Positions 3,744 to 14,798 of a DNA stretch of 22,996 bases are shown here, in pieces. The notes below the pieces were generated by a model. It was not told where the DNA came from. It was given only the letters and a program-made list of their open reading frames with translations, and searched no databases. Origin of the DNA: a virus; IMG/VR virus record IMGVR_UViG_3300034013_000395, positions 1 to 22,996 of that record; one strand, given 5' to 3'. The position numbers and the translations under genes are program-made. Within the stretch, counting starts at the first letter, position 1; the number at the start of each line of letters is the position of its first letter.

Positions 3744-3850
3744 GTTCGGGAATACCGAACAACTTAAAAAATTACTGCGAAAGGGGTTTATAGCGAATTG
3801 CGCAATAGCTATAATTAACTAAATTGATTTAGCCACAGTAGTTAAAATTC
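3744..3850 (+). ncRNA. Hairpin-rich untranslated region, candidate structured RNA
   Basis: No gene is present between 3738 and 3987. The strand folds into GTTCGG/CCGAAC (3744-3760), an outer helix AATTACTG/CAGTAGTT (3770-3777 with 3836-3843, one G-T), and inside it TTATAGC/GCTATAA (3788-3794 with 3808-3814) and CTAAAT/ATTTAG (3819-3832), giving a three-way junction. GCGAATT (3793-3799) could instead pair with AATTCGC (3846-3852) at the foot of the terminator. It may be the 3' end of the late mRNA or a separate RNA ending at 3880. The pairings are seen in the sequence; the existence of an RNA is inferred. Confidence 0.4.
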
Positions 3851-3880
3851 GCCCTTACTTTGATTAGTGAGGGCTTTTTT
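3851..3880 (+). terminator. Rho-independent terminator after the lysis genes
   Basis: Stem GCCCTTACT (3851-3859) pairs with AGTGAGGGC (3866-3874) over 9 bases with one G-T pair and a 6-base loop TTGATT, followed by six T residues. It separates the late/lysis block from promoter P1. Confidence 0.85.
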
Positions 3881-3895
3881 ATGAAAAATATTTGT

Positions 3896-3906
3896 TTGAT
3901 TTTCAG
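3896..3906 (+). promoter_or_regulatory. Shared upstream element TTGATTTTCAG (P1 copy)
   Basis: The 11-base sequence TTGATTTTCAG occurs here, 27 bases before the P1 -33 box, and again at 7710-7720, 17 bases before the P2 -33 box. The two distances differ by about one helical turn. It may be a bound element or remnant of a duplication of the promoter region. Confidence 0.35.
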
Positions 3907-3933
3907 CTAGTTATAAATTATTTTTATTTTTAT

Positions 3934-3964
3934 TTTGGTATTACTAAAAGTATTACTACATTTG
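3934..3964 (+). promoter_or_regulatory. Promoter P1 with an operator-like repeat in the spacer
   Basis: A Bacteroidota-type promoter: -33 TTTG (3934-3937), 19-base spacer, -7 TACATTTG (3957-3964). The spacer is exactly filled by GTATTACT-AAA-AGTATTAC (3938-3956), an imperfect palindrome closely matching the perfect one in P2. It is expected to drive the small early genes starting at 3988. Occupation of the spacer by a protein would block RNA polymerase. Confidence 0.72.
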
Positions 3965-3987
3965 TACAAGATAAAACGATTAAAAAT

Positions 3988-7019: not shown

Positions 7020-7238
7020 ATGATAGTATCAGTTAATTATGTAGTTGTTTGGGAGATACCAAACACACCTTATAAATTTACAAAAGAGGGTATTTGTATC
7101 AATACCCAACGATGCAAAATCTTAAAAAAAGTAAGCAAAAACGGAACTATTGGTTATAATTTTAACTCTAAATTTTATCCACTTAAAAAAGTTAGATTAA
7201 TGCTTAAAAAAATAAAAACAGAAAAATTACCATTCTAA
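7020..7238 (+). CDS. Small basic protein, unknown
   Basis: 72 residues, MIVSVNYVVVWEIPNTPYKF, then TKEGICINTQRCKILKKVSK with NGTIGYNFNSKFYPLKKVR. The pattern of IPNTPY, a central NG-IGY turn and a basic LKKVR end resembles small phage proteins distantly like NUMOD-type DNA-binding modules; this is only a weak impression. It is the first gene after the cassette island. Confidence 0.62.
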   Translation: MIVSVNYVVVWEIPNTPYKFTKEGICINTQRCKILKKVSKNGTIGYNFNSKFYPLKKVRLMLKKIKTEKLPF

Positions 7239-7241
7239 AAT

Positions 7242-7481
7242 ATGCAGATAAAAACAATAATTACACTTACGTACAATATACGTAAGTGTATTGAACAAAT
7301 TACTAGCTTAAATGAGGATATAGCCACTTTAAACCACCACATAACCATCAATAATAGCCTATGGTTTGTAGATTATAACAACGATAATTTAAACGCTAAA
7401 ATCAATCAAAAAGAAAACCAAATTCAACTCCAAAAAGAGCAAATTAAACAACTAATTAGACAACTAAATGAGCAAATATAG
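7242..7481 (+). CDS. Small coiled-coil protein
   Basis: 79 residues with heptad-like helices at about 17-35 (IEQITSLNEDIATLNHHI) and 50-79 (LNAKINQKENQIQLQKEQIK...). The codons for residues 8-17 lie in a perfect 12-bp inverted repeat (7262-7290). It overlaps the next gene by 14 bases. Function unknown; coiled-coil oligomerisation is inferred. Confidence 0.66.
   Translation: MQIKTIITLTYNIRKCIEQITSLNEDIATLNHHITINNSLWFVDYNNDNLNAKINQKENQIQLQKEQIKQLIRQLNEQI
7262..7290 (+). repeat. Perfect 12-bp inverted repeat inside a coding region
   Basis: TACACTTACGTA (7262-7273) and TACGTAAGTGTA (7279-7290) are exact reverse complements around CAATA. It could be a protein-binding palindrome or an mRNA hairpin near the start of the 7242 gene. 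Confidence 0.8.
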
Positions 7482-10801: not shown

Positions 10802-10832
10802 TTTGCTTTTATAAAAAAAAGTATTACTATTG
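10802..10832 (+). promoter_or_regulatory. Promoter P3
   Basis: -33 TTTG (10802-10805), 19-base spacer, -7 TACTATTG (10825-10832; one mismatch to TAnnTTTG). It overlaps AAAAGTATTACTA (10817-10829), the half-site also present at P1. Predicted transcription start is near 10838, at the base of hairpin H1 of RNA A. Confidence 0.65.
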
Positions 10833-10836
10833 CACA

Positions 10837-10940
10837 TAATAATTGAGGTAGTAGCCAATTATTAACAAATCGAATTTTCACACAACGAAAATATATTGAT
10901 TAGCCCCACTAGACTACTACTCTTTTGGGGCTTTTCTTTT
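10837..10940 (+). ncRNA. Structured leader / small RNA A with kissing loops
   Basis: About 100 bases, no ATG. H1: TAATAATTG/CAATTATTA (10837-10845 with 10856-10864, 9 bp), loop AGGTAGTAGC. H2: ATTTTC/GAAAAT (10874-10879 with 10887-10892). H3: terminator. GTAGTAG in the H1 loop (10848-10854) is complementary to CTACTAC in the terminator loop (10914-10920), allowing a 7-bp kissing contact. It lies directly after P3 and before the helicase-methyltransferase gene, so it is either a small RNA or an attenuating leader. The same architecture recurs in RNA B. Confidence 0.66.
10902..10940 (+). terminator. Terminator of RNA A
   Basis: AGCCCCA (10902-10908) pairs with TGGGGCT (10926-10932), 17-base loop, then TTTCTTTTT. 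The start codon of the next gene is 17 bases further on, so read-through or conditional termination would control that gene. Confidence 0.75.
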
Positions 10941-10948
10941 TAAAAATT

Positions 10949-13177
10949 ATGGAATACAACGAATTTTTACAACAAAAAACTAAAAAACATCAACTCACTG
11001 GGTTTGATATTGATGAAAATGAATTAAACAAAAACCTATTTCCATTTCAAAAATTCATAGTAAAACGAGCCTTAAAAGCTGGTAAGTATGCTATTTTTGC
11101 TGATTGTGGATTAGGTAAAACATTAATGCAGTTAACATGGGCTTATGAGGTTGCTTTACATACTGAAAAACCAGTATTGATTTTAGCACCTTTAGCAGTT
11201 AAGGGTCAAACTATTCAAGAAGCTAATAAGTTCGGAGTTGATTTAACTTTTATTGACATTCAAAACTATGAGCAATTAGATAATATCGATTGTAGTATTT
11301 ATGGTGGAGTTGTTTTAGACGAAAGTTCAATCCTTAAAAATTTTACTGGAGTTTATAAAAACAAAATTATTGACAATTTTAAATTAACTCAGTATAAATT
11401 AGCTTGCACAGCTACTCCAAGTCCAAACGATTTAAATGAAATTGGTAATCATTCGGAGTTTTTAGACATATTAGATAGTCAAGATATGAGGTCAAAATGG
11501 TTTGTGCGTGACGAGGGTATGAATAACTATCGTTTAAAAGGACATGCTAAATCTGACTTTTACGGTTGGATTTCAAGTTGGGCTACTATGTTATCAAATC
11601 CTTCAGATTTAGGTTTTGATGGTACTGGCTACGTTTTGCCTCCTTTAAATTTTATTGAAACTGAAATAAAAACACAAACTAGAAGCGACTATCAAATGTT
11701 TAATGATATTTCAGTAAATGCGACTAATTTCAATAAAGAACTAAGACTGACGAAAGTTGAAAGATTAAGCGAAGTTGTTGAAATTGTTAATAATTCAAAA
11801 GAGCCTTTTATAATTTGGATTAAGCAAAATGAAGAGGGCGAATATTTGAAAAAATTAATACCTGACGCAAAAGAAGTAAGAGGTGACGATAAACCTGAAG
11901 TAAAAGAAAAACTACTTTTAGGATTTGCAAAAAATGAATTTAGGGTTTTAATCACAAAAAGCAAAATTGCTCAATTTGGTTTAAATTATCAAAATTGCAA
12001 TAATCAAATTTTTGCCTCACTAGATTTTAGTTTTGAGGGACTTTATCAATCAATTAGACGTTCATATAGATTTGGGCAATTAAACACAGTAAACATTTAT
12101 TTAATAACAACTGATACAATGAAAAACGTAGTAAAATCAATTAAACAAAAAGAAGCTCAATTTATAGAAATGCAAAACGAAATGGGCAAACATATTAACG
12201 GTAAAAAATACGGATTACTAGATAAATATGAATATGCTGAATTTAAAAATGAAAATGTATTTTTAATGAAAGGTGACACTAATATTGAAATTAAAAGAAT
12301 TCCTGACAACTCAGTTGATTTAATTGTTTTTAGCCCTCCTTTTAGTTCTTTATTCACATATTCAAACTATATTCATGATATGGGCAATAATGATAGTCAC
12401 GCTGAATTTTTTAAGCAATATGAGTATTTATTAAAAGAGTTGTATAGAATTTTAAAGCCAGGTCGAATTATGGCATGCCACACAAAAGACTTAGGAGTTT
12501 ATAAAAATTCAAGTGGTTATACTGGCATGTATGATTTTACTGGTGAACATAATGAGTCAGTTTTAAATATGATACCTAACGAGTGGGCAAATGATACAAC
12601 AAGAAAAAACCACAAAGAAACTGAAAATGCAGGATTTAAATTTCATTCAAAGATAACTATTTGGTGCGATCCAGTACTTGAAATGCAGAGAACTAAAACA
12701 CAAAGATTGCTTTATAAAACAGTTACTTCAGATAGTACTAAAACTGGAATTGGAATGGCTGAATATATTACTATTTTTAAAAAGTGGGATGGTTCGGACG
12801 AGGAAAATTGGGAGCCAGTAACTAATATTACAAAACAAAATTTTCCTTTAGATACTTGGCAAAGGTGGGCTTCACCAGTTTGGATGGACATAAAGCGAAC
12901 TGATGTTTTAAATGGACATGAAGGGACTGCAATGGGTGACGAAAAACATATAGCACCACTACAACTTGAAGTAATACATAGAATTGTAAACCTTTGGAGC
13001 AATGAGGGCGAAACTGTATTTACACCTTTTTTAGGAATTGGTAGTGAAGCTTATGTAGCAGTAAAAAATAATCGTAAGGCAATCGGATGCGAGCTAAAAG
13101 ATAGTTATTTTGAAGTTGCTGTAAAGAATATTAAAAAAGCAGAAATGGCAAAAACTCAAATTGATTTGTTTGAATAA
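10949..13177 (+). CDS. Superfamily 2 helicase fused to an N4/N6 DNA methyltransferase
   Basis: 742 residues from the ATG at 10949 (an upstream in-frame TTG lies in the terminator stem and is rejected). N-terminal helicase: Walker A DCGLGKT (about 52-58), Walker B-like LDES, motif III CTATPSPND, and C-terminal helicase motifs around QFGLNYQ and SIRRSYRFGQ. C-terminal methyltransferase: motif IV SPPF (from 462) precedes the SAM site PFLGIG (693-698), the beta-class order for N4-cytosine or N6-adenine enzymes. An ATP-driven remodeller joined to a methyltransferase occurs in several phage lineages. It may modify phage DNA during replication. No nuclease motif is seen. Confidence 0.88.
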   Translation: MEYNEFLQQKTKKHQLTGFDIDENELNKNLFPFQKFIVKRALKAGKYAIFADCGLGKTLMQLTWAYEVALHTEKPVLILAPLAVKGQTIQEANKFGVDLTFIDIQNYEQLDNIDCSIYGGVVLDESSILKNFTGVYKNKIIDNFKLTQYKLACTATPSPNDLNEIGNHSEFLDILDSQDMRSKWFVRDEGMNNYRLKGHAKSDFYGWISSWATMLSNPSDLGFDGTGYVLPPLNFIETEIKTQTRSDYQMFNDISVNATNFNKELRLTKVERLSEVVEIVNNSKEPFIIWIKQNEEGEYLKKLIPDAKEVRGDDKPEVKEKLLLGFAKNEFRVLITKSKIAQFGLNYQNCNNQIFASLDFSFEGLYQSIRRSYRFGQLNTVNIYLITTDTMKNVVKSIKQKEAQFIEMQNEMGKHINGKKYGLLDKYEYAEFKNENVFLMKGDTNIEIKRIPDNSVDLIVFSPPFSSLFTYSNYIHDMGNNDSHAEFFKQYEYLLKELYRILKPGRIMACHTKDLGVYKNSSGYTGMYDFTGEHNESVLNMIPNEWANDTTRKNHKETENAGFKFHSKITIWCDPVLEMQRTKTQRLLYKTVTSDSTKTGIGMAEYITIFKKWDGSDEENWEPVTNITKQNFPLDTWQRWASPVWMDIKRTDVLNGHEGTAMGDEKHIAPLQLEVIHRIVNLWSNEGETVFTPFLGIGSEAYVAVKNNRKAIGCELKDSYFEVAVKNIKKAEMAKTQIDLFE

Positions 13178-13184
13178 ATAATTA

Positions 13185-13213
13185 TTGCAATTAAGTAAAA
13201 TAACTTATATTTG
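13185..13213 (+). promoter_or_regulatory. Promoter P4
   Basis: -33 TTG (13185-13187), 18-base spacer, -7 TATATTTG (13206-13213), a perfect TAnnTTTG. The predicted transcription start (about 13219) lies just before hairpin H1 of RNA B. It has no copy of the P1/P2 palindrome. Confidence 0.72.
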
Positions 13214-13218
13214 CACTT

Positions 13219-13324
13219 GTATTAAATAGGTATTGTTGAAGTAAGGCGCATCGATACCTATTACTTAGGATTAATTTAACGATTAATCAAACCCCTGACA
13301 AGCCTTACTGTTGGGGGTTTTTTA
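13219..13324 (+). ncRNA. Structured leader / small RNA B with kissing loops
   Basis: About 105 bases, no ATG. H1: AATAGGTATTG/CGATACCTATT (13225-13235 with 13252-13262, one G-T), 16-base loop. H2: GATTAAT/ATTAATC (13269-13275 with 13282-13288). H3: terminator with 8-base loop AGCCTTAC. GTAAGGC in the H1 loop (13241-13247) pairs exactly with GCCTTAC (13302-13308) of the terminator loop. Order and contacts are those of RNA A, but the sequences are unrelated, so structure rather than sequence seems conserved. Confidence 0.7.
13290..13324 (+). terminator. Terminator of RNA B
   Basis: AACCCCTGACA (13290-13300) pairs with TGTTGGGGGTT (13309-13319), 11 bp including two G-T pairs, followed by TTTT and more T residues. 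The next gene starts 13 bases after the stem. Confidence 0.85.
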
Positions 13325-13332
13325 TTTTAAAA

Positions 13333-14046
13333 ATGGCTAAAAGATTTACAGACTCTACTAAGTGGAGCAATAGCTTTATAAGGTCCTTAAAAGCCCCTTA
13401 TAAGCTCCTATGGTTGTACATTTTAGATGAATGTGACCATGCAGGAATATGGCAAGTTGATTTTGAGGTTGCTCAAATAAAAATTGGTGAAAAAATTAAT
13501 CAAAAAGATGCTTTAATATTTTTTGCAAGTAAAATTATTAATTTAAATGATAAATGGTTTATACCTAATTTTATTGAATTTCAATATACAGAACTAAATC
13601 CACAAAATAGAGCTCATAATTCAGTAATTACTATTTTAAAAAAATATAATTTACTAGACCAATTTTATAAAATTAAGCCCCTTACAAGCCCCTTACAAGG
13701 TGCTATGGATATGGATAAAGATAAAGACATGGTTAAAGTTATGGTTATGGATAAAGAAAAAGAGCAAAATTTTAATTTTCCAAAATCTGAATTAGAACTT
13801 TGTTTTGATAAATTTATTGAAATGCGAAAGAAAATAAAAAAGCCACCTACTCCACACGCAATTGACTTGTTAAAAGAAAAAATAAAAACTTTGTCAAATG
13901 GAAATGAAACTTTAGCAATTGAAATAATAAATCAATCAATTTTAAATAGCTGGCAGGATTTGTTTCCACTTCGAGAAACCAATAAAAAATCAAACACAAC
14001 TGAAAACTTAATCAATTCAAATTTTAAACCAAGATTTACAGAATAA
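13333..14046 (+). CDS. Phage replication initiation / replisome organiser-like protein
   Basis: 237 residues. The N-terminal domain (MAKRFTDSTKWSNSFIRSLK, then LLWLYILDECDHAGIWQVDF) is of the winged-helix, DnaD-like type found in phage replication proteins. A low-complexity linker of Met, Asp and Lys (about 126-144) follows, then a helical C-terminal domain (CFDKFIEMRKKIKKPPTPHA...). Such proteins bind the origin and recruit helicase loaders. The linker comes from GAT/AAA/ATG codon repeats. It ends by TAATG overlap with the next gene, probably its partner. Confidence 0.75.
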   Translation: MAKRFTDSTKWSNSFIRSLKAPYKLLWLYILDECDHAGIWQVDFEVAQIKIGEKINQKDALIFFASKIINLNDKWFIPNFIEFQYTELNPQNRAHNSVITILKKYNLLDQFYKIKPLTSPLQGAMDMDKDKDMVKVMVMDKEKEQNFNFPKSELELCFDKFIEMRKKIKKPPTPHAIDLLKEKIKTLSNGNETLAIEIINQSILNSWQDLFPLRETNKKSNTTENLINSNFKPRFTE

Positions 14047-14798
14047 TGAACTACCATTTATCAGATAAAAAGCAAGCAGAATTAAAAATGCAAGAGTATC
14101 AACTTAGTTTAATTGCCGAAAATTGGCAAAAAAAATATAACGAGTTAGAATTAAAAGCATTTAGTGACTGTTTCCCTAGTGAAGAAAATAAAACGCTCTC
14201 ACAACTCTTTAAAACGACTTTTAAAATAGGTGAGCAAGATATTAAGTATTCGGTGCCTACAAAATATCTACTTTTTAATGCTGTAAAAGATTTTGCAAGT
14301 TATTTTAATTTAACCAATAATTTTAAGGATGAGCAAATTCAGGACTTTGTAAATGATATTTTTGAGTTTTATTCTCATTTAACAGTAAGAGACATTAAAT
14401 TCTTTTTGCGTCAAGTAAAGATGGGTAATTTTGGGCAAATTTATAATCGTTTAGATGGTCCATTGCTTTTTGGTTATTTAAAAATTTACAATGATTTGCG
14501 TATTGGTGAAGCTGAACGACACGAAAGTAATTTAACCAAGGCCAAAGAAATTGAACAGTACGATGAGCGAATTATGCTAAAAAGGTTAGCGCCTTTATTT
14601 CAAAAGAAAACAGAACCAATTGAGCAAAGCAAAAAAGTAATTGAACCAGATGAAACCTATTTAAAAATTCATAAAGATTTTTGTTCATTACATGCCAAAC
14701 AAGGTAGTGAAAGTGGAACTATGTTTGTAAATTATAAAGGCAAAATGATGAATTTTGAGGAGTATTATAATACAATTATTGATGAAACATTTGAGTAA
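14046..14798 (+). CDS. Putative replication accessory protein
   Basis: 250 residues, helical. A central region DIFEFYSHLTVRDIKFFLRQ then KMGNFGQIYNRLDGPLLFGY resembles a DUF6633-type family of Bacteroidota phages and mobile elements (recalled). The C-terminus has a helix and a charged tail. Coupled start with the upstream replication protein suggests joint action, perhaps as a helicase-loading factor; this is inference. Confidence 0.7.
   Translation: MNYHLSDKKQAELKMQEYQLSLIAENWQKKYNELELKAFSDCFPSEENKTLSQLFKTTFKIGEQDIKYSVPTKYLLFNAVKDFASYFNLTNNFKDEQIQDFVNDIFEFYSHLTVRDIKFFLRQVKMGNFGQIYNRLDGPLLFGYLKIYNDLRIGEAERHESNLTKAKEIEQYDERIMLKRLAPLFQKKTEPIEQSKKVIEPDETYLKIHKDFCSLHAKQGSESGTMFVNYKGKMMNFEEYYNTIIDETFE

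Follow-up and report, generated by a model that had tools for sequence, protein, structure and literature searches.

We describe an RNA module of Bacteroidota phages that has a fixed position as a leader of replication genes, covarying complementarity between a segment near its 5' end and the loop of its intrinsic terminator, mobility between genes, and a hypervariable pairing sequence, here called the barcode. Judging by its placement, the module is probably a promoter-proximal attenuator of replication operons. The window analysed is the whole 22,996-nt IMG/VR virus record IMGVR_UViG_3300034013_000395, with genes mostly on the plus strand. It contains two copies of the element, RNA A (10837-10940) and RNA B (13219-13324); their parts and the genes behind them are listed in Table 1.

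Structure of the elements

Both RNAs have a predicted fold of three hairpins, H1, H2 and the terminator. The z-scores are -4.5 for RNA A and -5.3 for RNA B, and in neither case did any of 200 shuffled sequences do as well. Seven nucleotides in the loop of H1 are Watson-Crick complementary to seven nucleotides in the terminator loop, and the bases involved in A and B are unrelated; in all this the preliminary description proved correct. It had also placed both RNAs at a TAnnTTTG promoter. This is exact for RNA B, whereas the -7 box of RNA A has one mismatch to this pattern, with the TTTG box 19 nt upstream of it. The reported distance of 13-17 bases between terminator and gene had to be corrected: the end of the terminator stem is followed by the ATG after 16 nt in RNA A (helicase-methyltransferase gene) and after 12 nt in RNA B (O-like replication initiator gene). 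A mechanical ORF call starts the helicase gene at TTG 10925, inside the terminator, and ATG 10949 is the start backed by homologues.

Table 1. Parts of RNAs A and B and the adjacent genes (positions in the window)
Feature	Position	Strand	Remarks
RNA A promoter	10802..10832	+	TTTG 10802-10805; -7 box TACTATTG 10825-10832; Bacteroidota type, from sequence and homologous positions in relatives
RNA A hairpin H1	10837..10864	+	loop AG-GTAGTAG-C; kissing 7-mer GTAGTAG 10848-10854
RNA A hairpin H2	10868..10901	+	optional; not conserved across the family; missing from the L032 group
RNA A intrinsic terminator	10902..10942	+	apical 7-nt loop CTACTAC 10914-10920; U tract
SNF2-type helicase fused to N4/N6 DNA methyltransferase, behind RNA A	10949..13177	+	Pfam PF01555, PF00271, PF00176; PHROG helicase
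RNA B promoter	13185..13213	+	TTG 13185-13187; -7 box TATATTTG 13206-13213, perfect TAnnTTTG
RNA B hairpin H1	13225..13262	+	AA just before kissing 7-mer GTAAGGC 13241-13247
RNA B hairpin H2	13269..13288	+	optional
RNA B intrinsic terminator	13289..13328	+	GCCTTAC 13302-13308 in loop; U tract; compensated homologues L320, L112
Replication initiator, O-like, behind RNA B	13333..14046	+	phrog_678, E 1.8e-8; conserved family A1
Next gene of the replication operon	14046..14798	+	phrog_35728, unknown function; predicted helicase loader, from position

In one conserved arrangement, the group-1 scaffold, as well as in A and B, the H1 loop consists of 2 nt, the 7-nt barcode and 1 nt. The apical loop of the terminator is 7 nt long in most elements. 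The loop 7-mers show a weak GT...AG preference, and beyond this preference and the promoter no sequence is common to the scaffolds. The succession H1-H2-terminator is present in A and B, but H2 is dispensable and is not a family feature. The H1 hairpin is also dispensable: in one variant (L369, L391, L394, L397 and the 13-nt case L380), the sequence that matches the terminator loop is the bare 5' end of the RNA.

Covariation of the loops

IMG/VR was scanned with patterns derived from the conserved parts of the scaffolds, with the loops left free. The group-1 scaffold was found with six barcodes (AGTCCAG, AGTCGAG, GAGCGAA, GTACGAA, CTGCGAA and CTACGAA), each accompanied by the matching terminator loop, and the match is perfect in 95 of 97 distinct contexts. 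The two exceptions, L239 and L285, have one mismatch between the barcode halves and appear to be recombinants with the junction in the conserved linker. A further scaffold occurs with barcodes GTTGCAG and GTCGCAT, and there the inner stem of the terminator is altered too. The scaffold of RNA B has homologues with other barcodes and compensated loops, GTAGAGAA/TTCTCTAC in L320 and GTAGTGAG/CTCACTAC in L112. In the outer terminator stem of RNA A, a C-G pair is replaced by G-C in L002.

In an alignment of 28 distinct elements, double changes are seen in five of the seven loop pairs, 99% of the cells pair, and one-sided changes are absent. When the partner is slid along the same alignment, pairing falls to 31-47%. 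The early reading of A and B, that the same architecture with unrelated bases reflects covariation, is thus borne out by the compensated homologues; homologues without loop compensation, named beforehand as the contrary outcome, did not occur. Both loops, the promoter and the U tract are on one strand in all elements, and the stems tolerate G-U pairs on the sense strand. The covariation acts at the RNA level, and the element has the two loops with covarying Watson-Crick complementarity that are characteristic of kissing-loop RNAs.

Statistical significance and database searches

Related viral contigs were fetched via the proteins encoded behind RNAs A and B. In 1.86 Mb, a descriptor dependent on the kissing interaction gave 27 matches on the gene strand at a score of at least 30; the opposite strand gave 2, and dinucleotide-shuffled sequences gave 1.0 per shuffle. 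At a score of at least 27, an ORF started no more than 75 nt away from 40 of the 42 plus-strand matches. The strand bias of element matches was 34 versus 7. Because the descriptor itself uses loop pairing, a loop-blind test was run, with the promoter, hairpin, terminator and ORF picked without regard to the loops. Complementarity of at least 6 nt was present in 14 of 23 such arrays, whereas permutation gave 1.29 on average and never more than 6; it was present in 2 of 52 arrays lacking the ORF. A generalised scan of 3.07 Mb yielded 41 distinct elements versus 1.5 per shuffled set.

The first descriptor demanded a long H1 and missed both elements with short H1 (L071, L065) and the H1-less variant; it was superseded by kissing-blind tests and gene-anchored ones. 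Upstream regions of one initiator family, 54 distinct ones, were surveyed blind to the element. A terminator abutting the gene was observed in 42 of these regions, and 12 had none. The group-1 scaffold accounts for 26 of the 42 terminators. Among 11 deduplicated terminators outside group 1, eight have complementarity of at least 7 nt to the upstream transcript, versus 0.59 in permuted data. A chance origin of the complementarity is excluded.

At the gathering score, the covariance models of Rfam 15, the c4 antisense RNA (RF01695) included, have no match in the window and nine related loci; the best matches below the threshold have E-values of 2.6 and 3. This agrees with the initial impression that the RNAs belong to no known family, and no match implying another structure was seen. 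No described family was found in the literature, with incomplete coverage of papers. Searches of prophage copies in bacterial genomes, made via the initiator family, gave no clear element except for a candidate in a contig of a Desulfobacterales MAG (L191, 7160-7267). This array resembles the elements: it has 11-nt complementarity (GGCGAAGATCG/CGATCTTCGCC), and the gene after it is preceded by a purine-rich stretch. It is possibly a counterpart outside Bacteroidota. No convincing element was observed in phages phiST, phi40:1, phi38:2 and crAss001 (first 50 kb of each) and in a part of Pan5. A GC-rich phage, L006, contains element-like arrays without the Bacteroidota promoter upstream of a DUF1376 gene (7221-7341, GTGCGAG/CTCGCAC) and of a helicase gene (3862-3978).

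Genes downstream of the elements

The terminators of the elements lie at most 25 nt before an ATG in 53 of 54 cases (median 10 nt); the corresponding figure for the other strong terminators in these contigs is 20 of 101 (median 98 nt). A promoter followed by a leader and an intrinsic terminator right before the gene is the layout of a transcription attenuator. There is no space for a second promoter, and thus the gene is presumably expressed by read-through, either from the promoter of the element or from upstream.

The genes behind the elements encode replication initiators (O-like, Lin1244_N, DUF1376-like and others), helicase-methyltransferases, and HNH, NUMOD4-HNH and GIY-YIG-like proteins. 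The association with replication genes, suggested originally by the two copies in the window, holds for initiators of several families and for helicase-methyltransferases. A given barcode stands before different genes, and six barcodes occur ahead of one and the same gene; the barcode is independent of the downstream gene.

Endonuclease genes (HNH, NUMOD4-HNH or GIY-YIG-like, several of them called by eye from motifs and not by Pfam) are found directly behind the element in L032, L045, L085, L146, L184, L205 and L121, with the same short spacing from the terminator as the replication initiator in relatives. In L223, the gene just upstream of the element (2554-2982) encodes a protein with the DnaA C-terminal helix-turn-helix, hinting at a replication origin nearby. 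In L025, the initiator gene is preceded by a long array of short tandem repeats of the CTGGCT type (about 3830-3910).

Among isolated phages, elements were found in Flavobacterium phages FCV-3, FCL-2 and 11b and in snusmum6-3. The latter has three elements with mutually non-complementary barcodes. One of them apparently shares its scaffold with the element of FCV-3, the loops being compensated, as judged by eye. According to the paper on snusmum6-3, the phages of its isolate set are virulent except for laban6-1, which is temperate (PMC7077304). A total of 18 records, many of which are fragments, yielded no integrase, and this makes lytic co-infection or copy-number control a likelier setting than lysogenic immunity.

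Variability of the barcodes

The flanks of the elements in L223 and L281 are 98.0% and 99.3% identical, and the elements themselves differ only by three bases in the H1 loop and one compensating base in the terminator loop. In group-1 contigs with both flanks above identity cut-offs of 90-96%, divergence of the loop 7-mers outpaces that of the flanks about 5- to 8-fold, in an estimate where the scaffold is fixed by the search pattern, the contig pairs are non-independent, the polymorphic clusters are few and the closest pairs differ little; at cut-offs of 97-98%, with few pairs, the excess is only about two-fold. Several barcodes occur in one metagenome, for example in 3300043436 (L227, L254, L271). 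Copies within one genome are mutually non-complementary in the few genomes compared. Since a structural pairing intolerant of single changes should evolve slowly, the fast change of the loops suggests selection for being different, by analogy with plasmid incompatibility RNAs (PMC9458437).

Discussion

The observation of RNAs A and B is confirmed, and was even understated. We suggest the following mechanism. A promoter of the Bacteroidota type would drive a transcript of about 80-110 nt, with the start codon of a replication-module gene about 6-25 nt after the terminator. The 5'-proximal segment, usually a hairpin loop, would pair with the loop of the intrinsic terminator. Transcripts from the promoter of the element would stop at this terminator except in cases of read-through by RNA polymerase. 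Which of the two happens would be set by the pairing, probably by clamping the terminator. In the single-fold predictions for A and B, the pairing involves the terminator loop and not the stem, and thus it would not be a classical switch between mutually exclusive terminator and antiterminator structures. Further, a like-barcoded RNA from another copy of the genome or from a co-infecting phage may swap loop partners with the nascent leader. The expression of the replication gene would thereby follow gene dosage, and the barcodes would be incompatibility or heteroimmunity types.

We consider the chances that the terminated RNA has a second role, acting in trans on leaders with a like barcode, to be a little short of even; the same is true of the model as a whole, combining the attenuating leader with the trans action of the barcoded RNA. 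The cis pairing of both loops in one molecule should compete with pairing in trans, and the initiator upstream regions with no abutting terminator argue against the model. More tentatively, the elements may constitute a system of RNA-based incompatibility in virulent Bacteroidota phages. Each replication operon would have a private barcode of 7-13 nt that connects the 5' end of the RNA with its terminator loop, the released RNA would silence genomes with a like barcode, rare barcodes would be favoured, and several barcodes would coexist in a population.

One alternative is that the interaction is purely cis, the pairing serving to fold the leader or to tune its own terminator, with barcodes that drift since any complementary pair works. 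Pairing in cis is the simplest use of complementarity inside one transcript, and the barcodes do not depend on the downstream gene. However, loops that are so strictly paired, without one-sided intermediates, should then trail the flanks, yet the loops outpace the flanks and show polymorphism between near-identical phages; the co-resident copies, in the few genomes compared, are always orthogonal. We regard this explanation as rather unlikely. It is improbable that the element is a stand-alone small RNA, that is, a stable molecule of about 100 nt with host or phage targets, protected by the pairing of its 5' and 3' parts and adjacent to genes by virtue of genome compactness. Although it is a discrete unit with its own promoter and terminator and with the 5' hairpin locked to the 3' hairpin, its terminator is far nearer to the following start codon than is the case for other terminators in these contigs, leaving no space for a separate promoter, and hypervariable loops provide no conserved seed for a common target.

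The endonuclease genes behind some elements could mean that the leader and an HNH or GIY-YIG gene travel together as a mobile homing cassette, in which the leader restrains the endonuclease gene. This is very unlikely, as most elements precede initiators or helicases with no endonuclease (A and B in the window; L112, L177, L223), and the same element is followed by an HNH gene in L032 and immediately by the initiator in L105. An origin hairpin or a recombination site, acting at the level of DNA, is hardly credible: the hairpins do adjoin replication initiators, but the strand asymmetry of the promoter and the U tract, the tolerance of G-U pairs on the sense strand and the strand bias of the matches are all against it. 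The preliminary description had read the RNAs as conditional terminators, perhaps sensing a ligand or a protein. The attenuator-like placement is in line with conditional termination. Ligand or protein sensing was set aside, because there is no conserved aptamer-like sequence and the same element precedes non-homologous genes.

ColE1 RNAI and RNAII interact by loop-loop contact, and the loop sequence sets specificity and compatibility (PMC9458437). The element is similar in its kissing loops and in the tie to replication control. Whereas ColE1 has two transcripts from opposite strands, the partners here are in one transcript, and one of them sits in an intrinsic terminator loop; an antisense pair of the ColE1 type, with the complementary loops on transcripts from opposing strands, was not observed. 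The c4 antisense RNA of P1 and P7 (RF01695) and the CI RNA of satellite P4 are phage leader RNAs linked to heteroimmunity; they contain segments complementary to the transcript they belong to, and the released RNA represses a like transcript in trans. Their pairing partner is not known to lie in the terminator of the small RNA itself. For a comparable action of the element, the barcode polymorphism is indirect evidence. The element differs from them in the lack of an Rfam match, in the hosts and in the fold.

The promoter, the structured leader and the intrinsic terminator just before the gene are shared with attenuators and riboswitches. On the other hand, neither a leader peptide nor a conserved aptamer, the ligand-binding sequence of a riboswitch, is seen in the element, the terminator is targeted at its loop and not its stem, and the barcodes are private. 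The put RNAs of phage HK022 are short promoter-proximal hairpins acting on termination; they are not known to have complementarity to the terminator. The comparison points to an attenuator-like leader of an undescribed kind, for which neither Rfam nor the searchable papers, whose coverage is incomplete, gave a match. This putative RNA switch may also tell the RNA of one phage from that of another.

Isolated pairs of phage and host, for example Flavobacterium phage snusmum6-3 and its host strain LMO6, make the model accessible to testing. The elements form an RNA family that is widespread among the phages of a major bacterial phylum; their covariation is unusually clean, and several non-homologous types of initiator stand behind them. 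If a terminator loop is locked to the 5' end of its own transcript through a barcode that changes fast, this would be a new kind of termination control. If the action in trans is true, it would mean RNA-based incompatibility in virulent phages, and the elements would be a source of orthogonal regulatory parts.
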